Counted from the stretch's first letter, positions 9,234 to 27,013 are shown. The stretch is DNA of 47,382 nucleotides from Campylobacterales bacterium (GCA_027023105.1 JALVWY010000062.1:1-47382); one strand, 5' to 3'. The notes: a model not told the origin generated them from the sequence alone. Program-made: numbers and translations.

Positions 9234-12200
9234 TTAACGTGTACTAATAGCATTTTTTTGCTGTTCTTTTATTTGTTTATCTTCGATTTTATCGGTTTTT
9301 TGTTCTTTATCATGGTGTGCATGCACACCGCTTGTATTTTGCAACTGTTGTTTTTGCTCTTGTGTATTTGCAAAAGCTTTTGCTATTTCGTATGCTTTTT
9401 CTTCTTGCGTTTTTGTTAAGTTTTCAAAATCTTTTAGGTCTTCTATCAAAACTTCTTTGTCAAAATCTTCTTGTGTATATTCTAATGTAGAACGTTTTTG
9501 TTGTTCTTTTTGTACTTGCTCTTTTAATTCTTGTTTGTTTGTTGTAAAAACTTGTACATCTTCTTTGTGTCGACTTAAAGCAACATATGCAAGGTTAAAT
9601 GTGTTCATATCTTTGTATTTTGTATCTAGTACGGCAACTACTTTTTTACTTGTTGTTCCTTGTGATTTATGCGCAGTTATTGCATAACCTAAATCAAATT
9701 TATCATATGCTTTCGGATTAAATTCAACCACATCTCCGTTTTCTTTTTCTACCTTTAACATATGTTTTTCTTTATCATATTCTTTTACATACCCTAATTC
9801 TCCGTTAAAAACCCCTAAATCTCGGTTATTTTGCAAGAATACAACTTTGTCGCCTTTTGCAAATTTTTGTGTCTCTTTTGTATATATTTGTAAATCAAGT
9901 GCATTTTCTTTTAGGTCGATTTTTACTTCGTTATTATCTTTGTCTTTTACAATAATTTTATTATTAATTTCGTCAATTTCGCTTATTTCATATTCTTTAA
10001 ATTTTTCAAGTGTTTTTATATTTTTGTTAGGAATAATAACGTCTTTACCAGGTTCGTAATTTCCTGCAACCATTTTCGCAGAAGGAGATAAATTTTTAAT
10101 AACTTTAATGTTAAATGTATTTTCGTCTTCTCTCAAGCCCAGATTTGCTTTAACTTTTTCGTTTATTTTATTTACAATCTCTCTTGTTGCTGCAACTGCA
10201 AGTGTATTTTTAACATCTCGTGCAATTTCTTTTGCTGCAGAAGTTGTCATTTTTTCTAAACTCTCCGCCCTTGCTGCTTCGTATGCTTGCTTATATTCAT
10301 CTATATTTTTAAAATCTTTTGCGTCAACTTCAACTTTAAATTCTTTTACTTTATTCAACTTATCGAGCATATCAAGCCCTTTTGAAACATTTTTTTCTTT
10401 TGCAATTGTGTCTACAATCTCTTTCATTACTTTGTTGTTTCTTTGTCTTACAGACTCATCAACCTTTAATACTTTTGTATTTTGCTTTAAATCTTCAAAA
10501 AAATTACCTGCTCCGATTGATTTTAACTGCTTGCTATCTCCCATAAAAACCACTTTAATATCGTTTTCTTTTGCGTATTTAAGAAGCTTATTTGCTTTTC
10601 TTGCGTCTAACAAGCTTGTTTCGTCTACTATCAATATTTTTTGTGTTTGTTTTTGTTCTTTATCTATTTTTTTGCTTACATTGTTTGCAATATCTTGTAT
10701 TTTTTCTGCTTTTGCTTGTTTTACAGGTGCATAACTATTTAGTTCTGCAATAACTTTTTTATCTTTTTTAACTTGTTCTACTTCTTTTAATAGATTTTGT
10801 TTTTTTAATTTTTCCTGTAAAATGATATCATCCGCTTTTTTTTCTAGTGCTTGTAATTCTTTTTTTGCAGCTTCTTTTTGCAGATTTTTAGAATTTGTAA
10901 CTTTTGCTAAAGCTTTTAAGCCTTTTGCTTCTTTTGTAAGAGTTTCTGCCGCTTTTAAGTCTTTTTCCACCTGGTGTGCATGCACACCGCTTTGTTGTTT
11001 ATAATTTTTAGGAGCTTGGTTTGTATGTTTATTGTTGTTTAAAAAGAATTCTAATTTAGTCTGTTCTTTTTTATGTGCGTCTATCAATTTGCTTGTTACA
11101 ACTGTTCTTGTTTTTTTGTTAAAAATCTCTTCTCTTGTAACTGTCGCAGTAACATATTTATTTTCTTCTAACCGATAAGAAATTTTTGTAGTTTTAAGTC
11201 TTTTATCTAATTCTATTACATTATGTTTAATATCTTTTGCTTTTACCTGCAAGATTTTATCTTGTTTGTTTTTGTAAACATCTTTTGTATAGTTTGTTTT
11301 TACAAGCAAATTTTTAGTTAAGTTTTTAATAAGTCCTGTTTCTTTTGTTTTATCTATTAAATTGTTGCTAATTTCCTTACCTAAAAAGCTTTTTCTTGTA
11401 TGTGTAATATGTTTAAGAACATTGCCTTTTTTATCTGTAATTTTTAAACTTTCTTTTGTAATTTTAAATCCTAAAATATTAAATTCTAACGCTCTTCTTT
11501 TATATTTACCACCCGTTTTTGTTTGTGCAGTTTTACTATTGTAACTTAGACTTAAAATTGCAGCAACACTTAATTTGTATCTGCTTTGTTTTGTATATTT
11601 ATCCTTGTGTGTTTCTTGTTTGTAATTAAGCAATCCTAACACGCTGCCTTTTGCGTTTTTGCTGTACAATCTTTCTTTATCTGCTGTTAAAATATTGTTT
11701 GTGTGTGTCTTGTAACCTAAAATATTACTTAAAGCTATATGTTTTCCTAAAAATTTGAATCTTAAGGGGCTAAACTCTTCAAATTCATATTCGATTTTTG
11801 TTCCGTCCCTAAACTTACTTACACTTTTATAGGTAAATGTATCTCCCTTAAAACTGCGATATTCTGTTCTTTTTACGCCTTTTGCATTATCTTTATAACC
11901 CTTTTTAAAATCTATTTGTCTGTATCCTGTAAAGTTATTGCCTATAAAATCAACATCTTTAAATCTTGTCAAAAACGCAAAAGGTGTTCTGTTTTTAAAG
12001 TCTTCTGCTTTTACATAGTATTTGCTGTCTAAACGTCTAATATTTGTTCTTTTTAAACTAAAATCATCTTTGTTGTAATTTTGTTTTTGCTGTGCAGGTT
12101 GGTGTGCATGCACACCATTTTGTTTTTGTTGCTGTTGTACAATATTATCTTTTGTTTCTTTTTTTGTTGTTTTAGGAGTGGTTGAATTGTGTCTTAAGTC

Positions 12201-13988
12201 TTTTAATTTGTTAATATCTATTTTTACAGGCTCTTCTTTTTTATTTACCGATAAAGAAGAGTTGTTATCATTTTGGTGTGCATGCACACCGCTTTTTTGC
12301 TGTTCAAGCTCTTTTATTTTTTCGTCTATATATTTATTAGTTACATCTACAAATCCGTTTTCGTTTTTTGCTATATATTCGTTTTCTTCTTTTGCTTCTT
12401 TTTCTAAACTTAATAAAAAGCTGTCTATCGTTTTACTTTGTATACCGCTTGCTTTAACTGCTTCAGAAGCCGCTTTTCCGGTAGGAGTTAAAACCTGTAT
12501 ATCAATCTCTTTACCTTCTTTTTCTAAACTTTCTCTTAATGCGTCTAATAACGTTGTTTTACCAACTCCCGCACTCCCTTGTATTGCTATAAATTGTTCA
12601 TTACTTGTTAAAATACCCACCACTGCTTCTCTTTGCTCGTTTGTTAGATTAAAACCTTTTCCTTGTTCGTAATTGTCTATTAATTTTTCTGCTGTATCTT
12701 TGTCTGTTAAATTCTCAAAAGTTTTTTGATGTTTAAGTATTTTTATATTTTCTTTTTCTAAGCCATGCATCTCTTTTGTTGTGAAATTTTTATCGTTAAG
12801 TTTTTTTATTTCATACCCGTGTTTTTGTCCTGTTTTTTTAACTTTGTTTAGTTCTTCTTCTAAATCCTCTATACTGTAATTTCCTAAACCAATTTCTAAT
12901 GCTTGTTGTAAGAGTTCGTCTTTTGTAAACGTAGATTCATTTTGCGTTAAAATTTTTGCAGATAGTTCTAAAACTTCTTTTGTACTATATTTAAACTCTT
13001 CTTGTTTTTCTGCAGCTGCTTGTATGTTTTTTTGTAATTCCTCTAAACTTGTAATACCTTTATACTCATGCTGCGCTTTCCATTCATTTTTTAATTCTTC
13101 TCCTGTAATAAGTTCACTTTTATCACTTTTACTACTATGCTGCGCAATTACGTCTAATTTTTCTTCATTCAAATTTTCAAAATTTACATTACTTTTTAAC
13201 TCTTTTTTCGCCTGTTCTATTTGCATATGTCTTTTACTGAAATTATTTAAAACATCTTCTGTATATCCCGCAATCTCAAATTTTCCGTTCCCTTTCGCTT
13301 CAATTGCGTATCCTAATTCTTTAAGGTTTTTAGCAAGTTCACTTTTATAAATTTTATCTATCTTGCTTTGTTGTTTAAATATTTCTAAAAATTCGACTGC
13401 TTTAAATTTATCTTTATTTTCGTTATAAGTAATATTAAAAATAAGAGCGTGTGTGTGCAAATGCGGGTCTTCCGCTTCTCCCGGTATCGGACGAGCGGTA
13501 CTGTGTTGCACTTTTGCAACAAGCATATTGTTTGTATTTACACGCTCTCTTACATATTTGCCTTCTTCATCTTTTATAAGCTCTCCGTTTTCATTTTTTT
13601 TATATTCTCTCGTTTGAATTGCATTTTCTTCTATGTATTTAAGTGCAGCTTCTACTGCTTTTTGGTGTGCATGCACAACACGTTCATCCCCGAGCACTAG
13701 AGCAGCATGAGATACGCTTTTAGGAGCGGCAAAAGGCATATCAACAACTGCAACTCTTTTATCGTTCCCACCGCTTTGTACAAGTTCTGCTCCCGATAAA
13801 GGGTCTTTACCCTCTAATAGGCGCTCAAATGTTTCTTTATCAACTTTTTGTCCTTCTCTTAGACCTAAAACTTCCGCTAATTTACCGCCATATTCAATAT
13901 TTTTCCCCTCTCCATTCGCATTAAAGATTGGGTCTTTTTCGTAGTAATAGTTTTTCGCTGCTTTTGCTGTTACTTTTAAAGCTTTCAT
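9234..13988 (-). CDS. MOBF (TrwC/TraI-like) relaxase-helicase
   Basis: N-terminal Tyr cluster NYYYEKD; His triad PHLHTHALIFN; Walker A GSAGVGKTT; Walker B ILIVDETSLLDA; C-terminal YAITAHKSQGTT..YVALSR. Confidence 0.95.
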   Translation of the reverse strand: MKALKVTAKAAKNYYYEKDPIFNANGEGKNIEYGGKLAEVLGLREGQKVDKETFERLLEGKDPLSGAELVQSGGNDKRVAVVDMPFAAPKSVSHAALVLGDERVVHAHQKAVEAALKYIEENAIQTREYKKNENGELIKDEEGKYVRERVNTNNMLVAKVQHSTARPIPGEAEDPHLHTHALIFNITYNENKDKFKAVEFLEIFKQQSKIDKIYKSELAKNLKELGYAIEAKGNGKFEIAGYTEDVLNNFSKRHMQIEQAKKELKSNVNFENLNEEKLDVIAQHSSKSDKSELITGEELKNEWKAQHEYKGITSLEELQKNIQAAAEKQEEFKYSTKEVLELSAKILTQNESTFTKDELLQQALEIGLGNYSIEDLEEELNKVKKTGQKHGYEIKKLNDKNFTTKEMHGLEKENIKILKHQKTFENLTDKDTAEKLIDNYEQGKGFNLTNEQREAVVGILTSNEQFIAIQGSAGVGKTTLLDALRESLEKEGKEIDIQVLTPTGKAASEAVKASGIQSKTIDSFLLSLEKEAKEENEYIAKNENGFVDVTNKYIDEKIKELEQQKSGVHAHQNDNNSSLSVNKKEEPVKIDINKLKDLRHNSTTPKTTKKETKDNIVQQQQKQNGVHAHQPAQQKQNYNKDDFSLKRTNIRRLDSKYYVKAEDFKNRTPFAFLTRFKDVDFIGNNFTGYRQIDFKKGYKDNAKGVKRTEYRSFKGDTFTYKSVSKFRDGTKIEYEFEEFSPLRFKFLGKHIALSNILGYKTHTNNILTADKERLYSKNAKGSVLGLLNYKQETHKDKYTKQSRYKLSVAAILSLSYNSKTAQTKTGGKYKRRALEFNILGFKITKESLKITDKKGNVLKHITHTRKSFLGKEISNNLIDKTKETGLIKNLTKNLLVKTNYTKDVYKNKQDKILQVKAKDIKHNVIELDKRLKTTKISYRLEENKYVTATVTREEIFNKKTRTVVTSKLIDAHKKEQTKLEFFLNNNKHTNQAPKNYKQQSGVHAHQVEKDLKAAETLTKEAKGLKALAKVTNSKNLQKEAAKKELQALEKKADDIILQEKLKKQNLLKEVEQVKKDKKVIAELNSYAPVKQAKAEKIQDIANNVSKKIDKEQKQTQKILIVDETSLLDARKANKLLKYAKENDIKVVFMGDSKQLKSIGAGNFFEDLKQNTKVLKVDESVRQRNNKVMKEIVDTIAKEKNVSKGLDMLDKLNKVKEFKVEVDAKDFKNIDEYKQAYEAARAESLEKMTTSAAKEIARDVKNTLAVAATREIVNKINEKVKANLGLREDENTFNIKVIKNLSPSAKMVAGNYEPGKDVIIPNKNIKTLEKFKEYEISEIDEINNKIIVKDKDNNEVKIDLKENALDLQIYTKETQKFAKGDKVVFLQNNRDLGVFNGELGYVKEYDKEKHMLKVEKENGDVVEFNPKAYDKFDLGYAITAHKSQGTTSKKVVAVLDTKYKDMNTFNLAYVALSRHKEDVQVFTTNKQELKEQVQKEQQKRSTLEYTQEDFDKEVLIEDLKDFENLTKTQEEKAYEIAKAFANTQEQKQQLQNTSGVHAHHDKEQKTDKIEDKQIKEQQKNAISTR
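9314..9329. repeat. 16-bp palindrome GGTGTGCATGCACACC
   Basis: Perfect palindrome, exact copy. Confidence 0.95.
10973..10988. repeat. 16-bp palindrome GGTGTGCATGCACACC
   Basis: Perfect palindrome, exact copy. Confidence 0.95.
12101..12116. repeat. 16-bp palindrome GGTGTGCATGCACACC
   Basis: Perfect palindrome, exact copy. Confidence 0.95.
12275..12290. repeat. 16-bp palindrome GGTGTGCATGCACACC
   Basis: Perfect palindrome, exact copy. Confidence 0.95.
13664..13679. repeat. Variant palindrome GGTGTGCATGCACAAC
   Basis: One mismatch to the 16-mer; encodes VVHAHQ in the relaxase domain. Confidence 0.85.
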
Positions 13989-18643: not shown

Positions 18644-18690
18644 AAAATCGGCAAAATCGAAAACTTCCCGAGATTTAGGGGCTTTAGATG

Positions 18691-18832
18691 TGACGTCACA
18701 GTGACGTCAGGTCTGCAAAATGTGACGTCAAAGTGACATCAAACAGTGACATCATTGTGACGTCAGTAATTTTTGTTTTACGCAAAAACCTTGAAATCAA
18801 GGGCGGAAAAACTTGACGTCATTGTGACGTCA
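18691..18832. promoter_or_regulatory. Array of eight TGACRTCA palindromes in four 11-bp-phased pairs
   Basis: 18691/18702, 18723/18734, 18747/18758, 18814/18825. Confidence 0.9.
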
Positions 18833-18937
18833 CCTCATTTCTTTCATTTTTTTCAACTTTTTCAATTACCGGTAAAAAAAGACACAAATGAGGTTGCAAA
18901 ATCTCTATCAAAAAAACAACAAAAAAAGGAGATAGAA

Positions 18938-19917: not shown

Positions 19918-19964
19918 CCCCTAATTTTCTCCACTTTTTCGTTTTTTTATTTTTTTTAAATCCT

Positions 19965-20106
19965 CCTATAACACAAAGTTAAACAAAAGTGAAGCGGTGG
20001 TTTTTATTCGCATAGTTGCAAAAATAAAAAATAAAAGGAGACAGTTATGAGAAAACTAATTTCAAGTTTAGCGATAGTATCAGTTTTAGCAATAAGTGCA
20101 AGTGCA
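19965..20106 (+). repeat. Promoter, 5'UTR and signal-peptide cassette copy 1
   Basis: 19999-20106 identical to 24530-24637 (108 bp); looser similarity back to CCTATAAC at 19965. Confidence 0.9.
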
Positions 20107-20745
20107 GCAACAGTTAGCAATCAAGTTGTAGGTACAACAGCAACATTTGTGGTCGGAGAAATTGCAGGTAATTCAAGTCAGGTAGGTATTAATTTAAAAC
20201 ATTCAGAAATCTTAAAAACAAGCGAGAATTTATTTTTAACAGGTGCATTAGATTTTACAGCAACACAAGATTATCAATCAATTTCAGCACCTCTTACATT
20301 TAATTTTTACGGGGATTTTGCACATAAAAACGCAAACGGATTTTTAGATTTCACAGGTGTTAACGTTTATCCGTTTGTTAGCAGAATTAAAAATGTAGAC
20401 ACTAAAAACAAACAAAATTTTGGCGGAATCGGTTTAAGCACAAATCTTGTTTTACAATACAAAAACGAAAAAATTGCAGATGTGGAAATTGGCGGAGAGA
20501 AAAGTTTGTTTGATAAAAGCACACATAAATACGCAAACCTTTTTGTAAAAATAAATGTGCCTCTACAAGACAATATTACAGCATATTTTCAGGTCGGTAA
20601 AACATTCCTAACAGATAAAATTGCAAAAACTGTAACAACTACAGACAATAACAGTATAGGAGATACTACAACAACTACAACTATAAAAGAGCCTACATCC
20701 ACAACAGAAAACACTTTCTTATTAGGGGTTAGTTATTCATTTTAA
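20047..20745 (+). CDS. Outer-membrane beta-barrel-like protein
   Basis: Signal peptide MRKLISSLAIVSVLAISASA; C-terminal LLGVSYSF. Confidence 0.65.
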   Translation: MRKLISSLAIVSVLAISASAATVSNQVVGTTATFVVGEIAGNSSQVGINLKHSEILKTSENLFLTGALDFTATQDYQSISAPLTFNFYGDFAHKNANGFLDFTGVNVYPFVSRIKNVDTKNKQNFGGIGLSTNLVLQYKNEKIADVEIGGEKSLFDKSTHKYANLFVKINVPLQDNITAYFQVGKTFLTDKIAKTVTTTDNNSIGDTTTTTTIKEPTSTTENTFLLGVSYSF

Positions 20746-20777
20746 TCCCTTTCATTCCATTAAAAAAAGGATAAAAA

Positions 20778-21341
20778 ATGACAGAAAAAAGTTATAACAA
20801 AGATTTACAAGGCGCAAAATCTTTTAGTTTGTGGCTCACAGACTTTACAATTAATCTCAAATTCTACACTTACATTCTAACCTTAAGCGCAATTCTAGGG
20901 CTTGTATTTACATTATTGTTAATTATTTTCAAAGAAGATTGGTTTGTAAAAGCTCACGCTTTAACAATGTTTATTAAAAGCATTTTTGCAGGTAAAACTA
21001 TTTATATACAAGATATAAACGCAAACGTTTCCGCACAAGAAGCAAGAAAATTTTATGAGCATTTACTTTTACAGGAAAAATTCATAGTAGCAAAAATACT
21101 TGCAGCTTATATGTTTAGCTTTTTTGCAACGTTTATTATTTCCTATAAATTGCTTGCAAAAAAAGTTACAAAACATACAAAAGAATTTCAAAAACCTGAA
21201 TTCTTACGAGGTACAAATGTAATAGATGTAGAAAAATATGCAGAGCTTCAAGGTAAAAGAAAAGTTGAAGGTGTTGTTTTAACTAACCTAGAAGCAGAAG
21301 AAGTTAAAAAAGCAATTGAGGAGGTTAAAAATGCTAAGTAA
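20778..21341 (+). CDS. Coupling protein N-terminal membrane subunit (split T4CP)
   Basis: Two TM segments then EFLRGTNVIDVEKYAEL, typical TraD/TrwB N-terminal 'RGt' region; overlaps ATPase ORF. Confidence 0.65.
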   Translation: MTEKSYNKDLQGAKSFSLWLTDFTINLKFYTYILTLSAILGLVFTLLLIIFKEDWFVKAHALTMFIKSIFAGKTIYIQDINANVSAQEARKFYEHLLLQEKFIVAKILAAYMFSFFATFIISYKLLAKKVTKHTKEFQKPEFLRGTNVIDVEKYAELQGKRKVEGVVLTNLEAEEVKKAIEEVKNAK

Positions 21342-22680
21342 AAATAAAAAAATAATGCTAAGCTATAATAGCTTAAATCAGCATACCTTAATAATCGGGC
21401 AGTCAGGGGTTGGTAAATCAGTCTTACTTAAAAGAATTTACACTCAATTAAAAACTCAAAACACAGGTGTCTTCGTAGTTCACGACATTAAGGGCGACTT
21501 CATTCAACAGTTTTACAATCCCGAAACAGATTACATTCTAAATCCGTTAGATTCAAGAAGTATAAACTTAAATATATTTAAGTTAATAAAAACAAAAGCA
21601 GACATAAAAGCAGTTGTAGCTGCACTTATACCGGAAGCAAAAGAAGCAAAAGAACCCATCTGGGTAAATAGCGCAAGAGACATTTTTGAAAGCATTATTT
21701 ATCTTGCAATACACAATTTTAAAACAGGTAAAATTGAAAAATTAGATAATACTGTAATTAAAAATTACATACAGGAAGGTATTGCATTTTTAGTAGAAAA
21801 CTTTAAAGATTTAAAAGAATGCAGCAGAGGTTATGCTCACTTGCAAGCTTACAAAACAAGCTCTCAGCCTGCAAATATTTTTTCAAATTTTCTATCTTAT
21901 ATGACCTTGTTTGACGTTGTTGCAGAAAACAAAAACCCTGAACTTGATTTAAAAGAATTTATACAAAAACAAAACGGAGCAACGATTTTCCTTGCTAACT
22001 ACAACAACATTAAAGATTTTGTAGCGCCTTTATTAAGCCTTTTTGTAAATGCGCTTGTAAGAGAGCTCCTAAGTTTAGAAGAAAACTTAGACAGAAGAAT
22101 GTTTCTCTTCCTGGACGAACTTACAAACCTGCTAAAAATTGACAAAATTTTAGACTTCCTTACACTTGCAAGAAGTAAGGGAGGAGCGGCATTTTTAGGT
22201 TTTCAAGACGTAAAAGCACTTGAAAGAATTTACGACAAAGAAGGTGCAGAAACAATTGTTGCAAACACTGCAAATAAAATAATTTTGAGGGTTGGAGATG
22301 TTTCAACTGCAGAATACTTAAGTAAATTAATAGGCGAACAGGAAGTTAAAATAGTAAACAAATCACACAGCGTATCGCCTTTTGACAGAGACAGCGTAAG
22401 TTACAGTACACAAATCCAGCGCAGACCTGCGGTTTTAGCAAGTCAAATTACAACCTTGCCAACCTTGCATTTTTATTTAAAAACGCTTGAATTGCCGGAA
22501 TGGACATACGTTCCAAATGCTTTTATTCCAAGCCAGGATAAATATCCTTTAACACAACCTAAATTACAGCTAGTAGATACATTTAACATCAATTTCAGTT
22601 CTCAAAAAGCACAATCTTTTGCAGACAATATTTTATTAACAGCTGCACAAGAAGAAGCGGACGAAGAAGAAGTTTTATAA
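21331..22680 (+). CDS. Type IV coupling protein ATPase (TraD/VirD4-like)
   Basis: HTLIIGQSGVGKSVLLKRI; DIKGDFIQQFYNPETDYILNPLDSRS; PIWVNSARDIFE; MFLFLDELTNLLKI; GFQDVKAL. Confidence 0.9.
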   Translation: MLSKNKKIMLSYNSLNQHTLIIGQSGVGKSVLLKRIYTQLKTQNTGVFVVHDIKGDFIQQFYNPETDYILNPLDSRSINLNIFKLIKTKADIKAVVAALIPEAKEAKEPIWVNSARDIFESIIYLAIHNFKTGKIEKLDNTVIKNYIQEGIAFLVENFKDLKECSRGYAHLQAYKTSSQPANIFSNFLSYMTLFDVVAENKNPELDLKEFIQKQNGATIFLANYNNIKDFVAPLLSLFVNALVRELLSLEENLDRRMFLFLDELTNLLKIDKILDFLTLARSKGGAAFLGFQDVKALERIYDKEGAETIVANTANKIILRVGDVSTAEYLSKLIGEQEVKIVNKSHSVSPFDRDSVSYSTQIQRRPAVLASQITTLPTLHFYLKTLELPEWTYVPNAFIPSQDKYPLTQPKLQLVDTFNINFSSQKAQSFADNILLTAAQEEADEEEVL

Positions 22681-22696
22681 AAAAAGGAGGTAAATT

Positions 22697-23122
22697 ATGA
22701 ATCCAAAAGTTATCCAATTTCTTATCGCAACAGGCTTGATTGGAGCGTTTGTCTTATATTTAATTATGCAGCAAAACCAAGAAATTTCGGCAAAACAGGC
22801 AACTTTTAACAATAGCGTAGATATGCAGATTAAGCAAATACAAGCAGATATACATTTAGACAAAGCAAATATGAACGGTTATATGTCTAACAAAGCGACA
22901 GGCAGAGCTTACGGTTTAACTGCTTTACAGGAACAAAAAGAACTTGCGGAAGAAAAGAAAAAGCAAAGAGAGCTCAAAAGAAAACAAGAAGAACAAGAGA
23001 AAAAATCAAAACAGTTATTAAAAAATTACGAAAAAGCCCTTGAAATGCAACAAGAAAAACAACAAAGTCATCCAAACTTCGATAAAGAATTTGACGATTT
23101 CGACAAACAATTCAACTTCTAA
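22697..23122 (+). CDS. Single-TM coiled-coil protein
   Basis: TM VIQFLIATGLIGAFVLYLIM then K/E/Q coiled coil. Confidence 0.65.
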   Translation: MNPKVIQFLIATGLIGAFVLYLIMQQNQEISAKQATFNNSVDMQIKQIQADIHLDKANMNGYMSNKATGRAYGLTALQEQKELAEEKKKQRELKRKQEEQEKKSKQLLKNYEKALEMQQEKQQSHPNFDKEFDDFDKQFNF

Positions 23123-23199
23123 TTCTCTTTTTCTCAACATTTTTCAAACATTCCTATAACACTATGTTCCATTAAAAAAAAACAAATAAAGGAGGTAAT

Positions 23200-23577
23200 A
23201 TGGACGGATTCAATCATCATTTTAACGGCTTTCAAAATACCGAAAACCCGGTAAAAATTGAAAGCGCACATGAAGAAAACACAGGTGGTGTGCATGCACA
23301 ACAGCAGCAACGCACAACACGCAGAAAAAAAAGCAAAAAAGACAAGCTCAAAGAAAAACTTGAAAAAAAACTGCAAGAGCTTCGCAAAATTGAAGAAGAA
23401 AAGAAAAAACTTGCGCAAGAGCTTAAAAAAATAGAAGAACAAGAAAAAATAGAGCAAGACAAAAAACTTGCAAAAGCAGCAAGAGAAGCGTTTATCAAGG
23501 GCTTAACAGAAGAATCATTACATCAATTAAAACAAAAAATCCAAGAAATTTTAGGAGGCGAAAATGAAACTTATTAA
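23200..23577 (+). CDS. Basic coiled-coil protein with GVHA palindrome
   Basis: TTRRKKSKKDKLKEKLEKKLQEL..; CCTATAAC motif at 23153. Confidence 0.65.
   Translation: MDGFNHHFNGFQNTENPVKIESAHEENTGGVHAQQQQRTTRRKKSKKDKLKEKLEKKLQELRKIEEEKKKLAQELKKIEEQEKIEQDKKLAKAAREAFIKGLTEESLHQLKQKIQEILGGENETY
23287..23302. repeat. Variant palindrome GGTGTGCATGCACAAC
   Basis: One mismatch to the 16-mer; encodes GGVHAQQ in ORF 23200-23577. Confidence 0.85.
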
Positions 23578-24475
23578 AATCATCTTAACCGCTTCTCTTC
23601 TTTTTTTTACAGGTATTGCTTTTGCAAACGATTATAGTGCAGGAAGTAGCCAAAATTTAGGAAATTCCGCAGAAAAAAATATTAACGCAAAACAAGGTAC
23701 AGAAAGCAAAGTCAGTAAAAATGTAAGAAAAAGTAAAACTAAAACAAAATCAAAAGAAAAACAAAAAACGGTAGAATTAAGTACATTTGAAGCCGCAAAT
23801 ATTTTGTATAAATTAGAAGATTTAGAAAATGCAAATGTATATCCATTTGATGTTTGTAAAGTATTAACAAATCCAAAACTTCCTGAAAATTTTGGAATTA
23901 CAAGTGAAGAAGCAGACGGTATCTATAATCCAACATACGCAGAACTGCTAAATAAAGCAGCACAAAGCAATGCGCCTTTAAGCGTAATTTTAGACAGACA
24001 AGATATCTACAGACTTAAAGATTATCTCAATTGCCTAGGCTATTACGGCGCTATAACAGCACAGGCTTTAAAAAGCGGTAAATTAAACACAAAAATAACA
24101 GACACCCAAATAAAAAGACAATACAACAGATTTAAACGTAATCTCGCAAGAGCACGTTGCAGATTTGCAGGCAGTACAGATACAATAAACTGCAGAAATA
24201 TTTTTGTAAAATTGTCTTACGACCCCGTCCTAGAAATGAACGGAGTAAAACTTTTTGATACAAATACACATACGTTTTATGCTTATACAAGCACAACACG
24301 TAAAAGTATAACTTACAGCACAAGACTTGCATTAGAAATGCAAAAATCAAAAGAGAAAGGATATACAGACACAACTGCATTAGATACAACTGTTAGCAAA
24401 AAAGCAACAAGCAACACAGAACAAAACAACAAAGCTGAATTTAGTATGCGTGATTGGTTAAAGTTTAACCATTAA
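23564..24475 (+). CDS. Secreted hypothetical protein
   Basis: MKLIKIILTASLLFFTGIAFAND signal peptide. Confidence 0.65.
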   Translation: MKLIKIILTASLLFFTGIAFANDYSAGSSQNLGNSAEKNINAKQGTESKVSKNVRKSKTKTKSKEKQKTVELSTFEAANILYKLEDLENANVYPFDVCKVLTNPKLPENFGITSEEADGIYNPTYAELLNKAAQSNAPLSVILDRQDIYRLKDYLNCLGYYGAITAQALKSGKLNTKITDTQIKRQYNRFKRNLARARCRFAGSTDTINCRNIFVKLSYDPVLEMNGVKLFDTNTHTFYAYTSTTRKSITYSTRLALEMQKSKEKGYTDTTALDTTVSKKATSNTEQNNKAEFSMRDWLKFNH

Positions 24476-24496
24476 TTTTGCTTTTTTCTTTTTCTT

Positions 24497-24637
24497 CCTA
24501 TAACAGGGTTGTTAAACAAGTGTAGCAGAGGTTTTTATTCGCATAGTTGCAAAAATAAAAAATAAAAGGAGACAGTTATGAGAAAACTAATTTCAAGTTT
24601 AGCGATAGTATCAGTTTTAGCAATAAGTGCAAGTGCA
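24497..24637 (+). repeat. Promoter, 5'UTR and signal-peptide cassette copy 2
   Basis: 24530-24637 identical to 19999-20106. Confidence 0.9.
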
Positions 24638-25651
24638 AACAATTTTAACACTACAAATTCTTACGATATAAAAGCACAAGTTAATAATAAAAAACTTGTC
24701 AAAATAGGCGCAATAACGGCGGGAGTGCAACATTATTTGTTTACGTATTTAGGGAAACAAAAAAATTTTTCTGTAATTAGCTATAAACATTTTGTTAATT
24801 TTTATGATACTTTAGTATATCACAAACCAAAACAATTTGGTAAAGAAGGTACTACCGATTTTCTGCCTACAACAATTTTTAATGATTTGCTGCTTTATGA
24901 TGATAACGGCAGTTTTAATAAGTTAAAATACTCTCATTTGTTGCAATATCAATTTATTGATACAAGTATAGAAATTTTGCAAGCAAAAGGTATACCTACT
25001 AATTTAACATATACCGTTCAAAAAATTGTTGGTAAAACAGCAGTAACTATTACTTTAAATATACAACAAATTTTAGCAAAGTATGCAGAATTTCTAATGT
25101 ATTTAAAAAGTTTAAGCAACAACAATCCTCAAAAATTTAACGACATTTTTCAAAGATTTGCAGTATTTCTATTTTATAACGACGGTTTAAGCTACTACAA
25201 ACCATTAGAGAAAGTAATTAATAAAGAAACCGTAAAAGCTATATGCTTAACTGATAGAATTGTTGAAGACCCTTTCTCACCGCTTGATTTTGTCGCCATG
25301 ATATTCGGAGATTATAGGGGATATAGCAGAACTTTTCTATCTGGACGTGGAGAAATAGGAAAATTTGTAAATTATGTATTAGCGGGAGAAAAAGAAAAAG
25401 CAGCAAAACTATTCTTAAATAATAAAAGAATTGAACAAGAAAGAAATTTTTATAGAGATGAATTAGCAGCAGCTGCAAAGCTTGATAGCATTTACATTCC
25501 TCTACCTGATAAGTTTGCAAAAATTATATACAACAAAGCAGATGAAGCATTAGAAAAGCTACCTAATACATACAAACAAGAAGGATTACCAAGAGCAAAA
25601 TATATAGAAGGAATAGTAAAGCTTAGAAATCTTATTGCAGAAGGGAAATAA
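24578..25651 (+). CDS. Secreted hypothetical protein, 357 aa
   Basis: Same signal peptide as 20047 ORF, unrelated mature part. Confidence 0.7.
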   Translation: MRKLISSLAIVSVLAISASANNFNTTNSYDIKAQVNNKKLVKIGAITAGVQHYLFTYLGKQKNFSVISYKHFVNFYDTLVYHKPKQFGKEGTTDFLPTTIFNDLLLYDDNGSFNKLKYSHLLQYQFIDTSIEILQAKGIPTNLTYTVQKIVGKTAVTITLNIQQILAKYAEFLMYLKSLSNNNPQKFNDIFQRFAVFLFYNDGLSYYKPLEKVINKETVKAICLTDRIVEDPFSPLDFVAMIFGDYRGYSRTFLSGRGEIGKFVNYVLAGEKEKAAKLFLNNKRIEQERNFYRDELAAAAKLDSIYIPLPDKFAKIIYNKADEALEKLPNTYKQEGLPRAKYIEGIVKLRNLIAEGK

Positions 25652-26992: not shown

Positions 26993-27013
26993 AAATCCCC
27001 CTCGCCGCACCAT
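26993..27013 (+). repeat. attR core AAATCCCCCTCGCCGCACCAT
   Basis: Exact 21-bp match to 107-127; marks the change to chromosomal genes. Confidence 0.93.

Follow-up and report, generated by a model that had tools for sequence, protein, structure and literature searches.

The window, a stretch of 47,382 nt from a Campylobacterales bacterium, harbors an element of 26.9 kb that is integrated in tRNA-Leu(GAG) and bounded by a 21-bp direct repeat of the tRNA 3' end. An integrase gene and direct att repeats at the tRNA gene are both present, and beyond attR the chromosome resumes with sigma-54, TsaE, a SelR-domain protein and others. A relaxase, a coupling ATPase and a DnaB-like helicase are encoded in the element. 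The coupling gene is flanked by two copies of a 108-nt leader, each at the start of a gene for a predicted exported protein (P1 and P2). The features referred to below are:

107-127, + strand: attL, the 3' end of tRNA-Leu(GAG), AAATCCCCCTCGCCGCACCAT
367-1632, + strand: tyrosine integrase (Pfam PF00589, PF13356)
9234-13988, - strand: TrwC (MOBF-type) relaxase-helicase, 1584 aa (Pfam PF08751, 8.7e-67)
19964-19972, + strand: TCCTATAAC, promoter-like motif of P1
19987-19998, + strand: 5' extension of the similarity, matching 24518-24529 at 10/12 bases
19999-20106, + strand: leader copy 1, exact 108-nt repeat with 48 nt of 5'UTR, Shine-Dalgarno AAAAGGAGACAG and signal peptide MRKLISSLAIVSVLAISASA
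20047-20745, + strand: P1 gene, 232-aa beta-rich predicted exported protein with C-terminus ...GVSYSF, outer-membrane-barrel-like; orphan
21331-22680, + strand: TrwB-type coupling ATPase (Pfam PF10412, 2.8e-74), flanked by both leader copies
22697-23122, + strand: 141-aa TM protein ending FDKEFDDFDKQFNF; counterparts by eye at L045 7120-7368 and L046 3611-3865
23564-24475, + strand: 303-aa predicted exported protein, marker family of the transfer module; homologues on contigs of related coupling genes
24496-24504, + strand: TCCTATAAC, promoter-like motif of P2, its own copy, with a T-tract unlike that of P1
24530-24637, + strand: leader copy 2, same sequence as copy 1
24578-25651, + strand: P2 gene, 357-aa predicted exported protein, mostly helical; orphan
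26993-27013, + strand: attR, 21-bp repeat of the tRNA-Leu 3' end and right end of the element

Transfer functions and promoter motif of the element

PF03135, the sole model used for a VirB4-type ATPase, matched nothing in the genome, which is 90% complete, and the element is therefore probably mobilizable rather than self-transmissible. A second small beta-barrel protein (Pfam OMP_b-brl), unrelated, is encoded near the integrase (1725-2279). The 16-bp perfect palindrome GGTGTGCATGCACACC lies at 9314, 10973, 12101, 12275 and 13664 in the relaxase gene and at 23287 in a 125-aa gene; these sites (two have a single mismatch and four none, against 0.01 expected by chance) are all in coding sequence of the element, and a role in uptake, methylation or protein binding is a candidate. 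A cluster of TGACGTCA-type repeats occupies a non-coding part of the element (18680-18840), which may contain binding sites or the oriT region.

The 26.9-kb element has 11 occurrences of the motif TCCTATAAC, and the remaining 1.27 Mb of the 1.29-Mb genome has 22. The number expected in the element is 0.47 (Poisson P ~4e-12), an enrichment of about 24-fold over the remaining genome. Most copies stand 3' of a T-tract, and 7 of the 11 are located 32-82 nt upstream of a start codon. The use of TATAAC in place of TATAAT suggests an element-wide regulon across 107-27013. Both leader genes have their own TCCTATAAC, 81-82 nt 5' of the ATG, within promoters of dissimilar sequence. Since these promoters differ and each is of the element type, the copied part is the transcribed leader only. 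Related elements have repeated promoter motifs of their own, for example ATGTATATAGGTAAGAAGATATAAATCTTC in L046.

The 108-nt leader and the two proteins that carry it

The leader copies are identical at 108/108 nt, in direct orientation and 4531 bp apart. This is the longest exact repeat of the window; the runner-up, of 31 nt, is a promoter motif. Chance is impossible as a cause of identity at such a length. The repeat consists of 48 nt of 5'UTR and exactly 20 codons, as the initial annotation had recognized in describing an identity that covers 5'UTR, ribosome-binding site and signal peptide and stops where the signal peptide ends. The last common codons are ...GCAAGTGCA, followed by GCA in one copy and AAC in the other, so that the match breaks right after codon 20, at the predicted AxA signal-peptidase boundary. 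Identity in the 150 nt 3' of the repeat end is about 31%. There are zero substitutions in the 108 nt, and the synonymous comparison that had been proposed gave 0 changes across the 20 codons; divergence is at most 2.7% (95% upper bound).

On the 5' side the similarity fades over a short distance. The 12 bases of the 5' extension are followed by a 2-nt indel and then by a common GTTAAACAA, positioned at the predicted transcription start. Similarity had been described as continuing up to the upstream motif, and this holds for the 10/12 bases and for GTTAAACAA; however, CCTATAAC is the element-wide promoter motif and is outside the copied block, with the indel between.

The further copies for which a search had been advised did not turn up in the genomes of the order: the 108-nt leader was found nowhere else in its own genome, in 298 order genomes or in 21 family genomes, nor in phage or plasmid collections, nor by exact-pattern scans of IMG/VR and GTDB contigs. 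Weak leader-like matches in three genomes (G254, G277 and G004) were A/T-rich UTR or generic signal peptides of other genes.

P1 lies just 5' of the small membrane neighbour of the coupling gene, and P2 lies 3' of the gene for the 303-aa exported protein. After the common signal peptide, which is followed by A or N and has no lipobox cysteine, the mature proteins have 212 aa (P1, OMP-like) and 337 aa (P2, orphan). The ...GVSYSF end of P1 resembles the C-termini of outer-membrane barrels. Single-sequence AF2 models are all-beta for P1 (pLDDT 32) and mostly helical for P2 (pLDDT 41), both too poor for a fold search. No relatives of P1 or P2 were found in Pfam, NCBIfam, plasmids or the 297 other order genomes, nor of P2 in IMG/VR. 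The mature parts had been said to look unrelated, with homology between them named as the finding that would contradict this; none was detected (BLASTP E = 0.89, hhalign probability 0.2%). A second, vestigial hydrophobic signal peptide downstream of the common one is absent in both P1 and P2.

Transfer modules and leader pairs in other elements of the order

The coupling protein and the 303 family are markers of a module that few order genomes have: relatives of the coupling protein (26-36% identity) were found in 11 of the 298 order genomes and the 303 family in 8-9 of 298-398 genomes. Wherever both genes are present they share a contig, except in G222, a fragmented assembly. A small predicted exported protein with an outer-membrane-type C-terminus is encoded near the coupling or relaxase gene in L046, L047, L049 and L051, and these modules have additional predicted exported proteins next to the 303 family, among them one with a family of its own (A2). 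P1 and P2 resemble such module counterparts in position, with no sequence homology: comparison of P2 with its positional counterparts (the A2 family and proteins of 648 aa in L047 and 620 aa in L049) gave nothing significant, and matches of P1 to the OMPs of other modules were confined to the signal peptide. The scans of IMG/VR and GTDB gave no relative of any query tried. The plasmid pSULKU01 has a 303-family gene and no leader repeat, and no close relative of the window element with a single leader copy is present in the data.

The 303 family comprises undescribed predicted exported proteins of about 300-350 aa that go with TrwB-type coupling genes in elements of Campylobacterota, where OMP-like proteins are encoded close by. 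Its members were found in the window (23564-24475, without a Pfam or NCBIfam match) and in L045, L046, L047, L049, L050, L051 and L067.

A distant element from this order, in G211, also has a duplicated leader. A search with its OMP leader revealed a perfect second copy 2254 bp away, on a contig of 298 kb in an assembly of roughly 10 contigs. This repeat has 103 exact nt, that is 43 nt of 5'UTR and exactly 20 codons (MKKSMVAAAAAMVLASGAAA), and ends at the signal-peptide boundary. One of the two genes is the OMP gene adjoining the coupling gene; the other is a 44-aa ORF with its stop directly 5' of a topoisomerase gene (PF01131). At its 5' end the repeat takes in the final codons of the coupling gene and its stop, and therefore the coupling-OMP junction is likely the donor side. 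The same element has a second copied stretch, 29 nt of the coupling gene reproduced without change in the 5' region of the gene for the 648-aa exported protein (L047 9098-9126 and 14688-14716). Between the signal peptide of this protein and the OMP leader 38/60 nt agree, a likeness that is no more than suggestive, the signal peptides being too few for a null distribution.

Two more pairs, of 61-72 nt, reach the Shine-Dalgarno. There are 61 identical nt 5' of an OMP gene and of a ParA gene in G044, and 72 identical nt 5' of two genes in G023, some kilobases away from the module. The signal peptide is thus included in only 2 of the 4 cases, while the other two tracts end at the Shine-Dalgarno and may instead represent promoter or operator sharing. 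The leader sequences of different elements are mutually unrelated, and therefore what recurs would be a process and not a sequence.

Under a strict criterion (a perfect direct repeat of 50 nt or longer, a start codon and Shine-Dalgarno in both copies, the repeat end near the start and unrelated sequence downstream), 4 leader pairs were counted in element-bearing contigs totalling 427,688 bases, against 0 in control chromosome of this order totalling 1,580,003 bases. With random placement the probability that all four fall in the element set is 0.002, or 0.007 without the window, in a count that is post hoc, since the 50-nt threshold was picked once the cases were known, and in which the 'element' regions include flanks of uncertain extent.

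Origin of the duplicated leader and comparison with known systems

We consider, with a probability of about 0.6, that an export leader was recently copied as a short tract between two unrelated genes of one mobilizable element, with the boundary kept by selection. The transcribed leader of one gene, P1 or P2, with some of the 5'UTR, the Shine-Dalgarno and all of the signal peptide, would have been copied recently to the other, probably by template switching or by ectopic gene conversion over a short tract. In the recipient gene it would have replaced or provided the 5' end, exactly to the signal-peptide boundary, a position set by selection on signal-peptide function. The copy may have been retained for the ready translation initiation and Sec export that it would provide in the host. 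The recent duplication, gene conversion or swapped leader proposed in the initial annotation finds support in the 0/108 substitutions, in mature parts without homology and in the lack of a vestigial second signal peptide. The swapped unit had been thought to serve both expression and export; 5'UTR and signal peptide do belong to it, but the promoter is not part of it.

An unlikely alternative is that one sRNA or RNA-binding protein acts on both leaders, the identity being held by selection or repeated conversion. Such shared post-transcriptional control would agree with a copied unit that is the transcribed leader and not the promoter, and with an element promoter motif before both genes, which may be co-expressed. 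However, the structure of the leader RNA is neither conserved nor unusually stable (z-scores against shuffles of 1.25, -0.36, 0.19 and -0.42), Rfam has no match to it, and the identity at synonymous sites is easier to explain by recency. Ordinary paralogy, in which a whole gene was duplicated and its mature part diverged past recognition under diversifying selection, seems highly improbable, although P1 and P2 are both orphan, exported and encoded by neighbouring genes. The mature parts are unlike in length and predicted secondary-structure class and share no alignable similarity, whereas the leader has no synonymous change; the promoters are unlike too, and therefore neither gene is a whole-gene duplicate of the other.

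We also give little credence to the leaders as a recombination cassette, in which leader-by-leader recombination would remove P1, the coupling gene and the intervening genes (4.5 kb) and place P2 behind the P1 promoter. Direct repeats of 108 nt are capable of recombining, and the Vsp/Vpma switching families likewise have a common 5'UTR and signal peptide (PMC5634654). Yet each copy has its own promoter motif, so that silence of either gene is unnecessary, there is no adjoining recombinase gene, and the deletion would cost the element its coupling protein. Nor do we expect an assembly chimaera, a repeat-induced misjoin in this metagenome-assembled genome. It is a draft of 179 contigs (G000), and the repeat is near the length at which short-read assemblers fail; but a single contig holds both copies with different flanks, and a flank swap would merely circularise the intervening 4.5 kb. 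Moreover, relatives keep their coupling genes beside the 303-family gene, and the like repeat of G211 is in a contig of 298 kb.

Together with the like copy in the distant element, the window pair suggests that such elements use export leaders over again as prefabricated modules. It is possible, though doubtful, that Campylobacterota elements with TrwC/TrwB modules undergo repeated 'leader propagation', typically from the OMP gene and precisely to the Shine-Dalgarno or the signal-peptide end, building a co-expressed or co-exported transfer set. The gain of export by a newly arrived gene of a mobile element is rarely caught happening; in the window both leaders are still identical with a precise junction, and the event is repeated, with another sequence, in a distant element. 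If confirmed in more elements, this would mean that signal peptides and translation signals move independently of promoters and mature domains, and would offer a testable route by which orphan proteins enter the envelope.

Several known systems are similar in part. In Borrelia burgdorferi, the 'upstream homology box' of the erp genes (ospE/ospF/elp) on cp32 prophages places a conserved leader peptide and upstream region on mature proteins of many independent origins (PMC10016077). Here, too, a mobile element carries an identical leader peptide on unrelated mature proteins. However, the block shared by erp genes contains promoter and operators, whereas identity in the window starts within the 5'UTR (19999/24530); erp products are surface lipoproteins, whereas the signal peptide described here has no lipobox cysteine; and the window pair sits on a conjugation-type element. 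The Vsp proteins of Mycoplasma bovis and the Vpma proteins of M. agalactiae form switching families with a shared 5'UTR and signal peptide (PMC5634654), as in our pair. Those families switch by site-specific recombination with a single active promoter, whereas in the window each copy has a promoter motif of its own and fronts a mature part unrelated to the other. The 'promoter propagation' in prokaryotes of Matus-Garcia et al. (2012) reportedly copies short regulatory leaders ahead of unrelated genes. In contrast, the copied tract of the window excludes the promoter and, having passed the start codon, stops precisely where the signal peptide ends.
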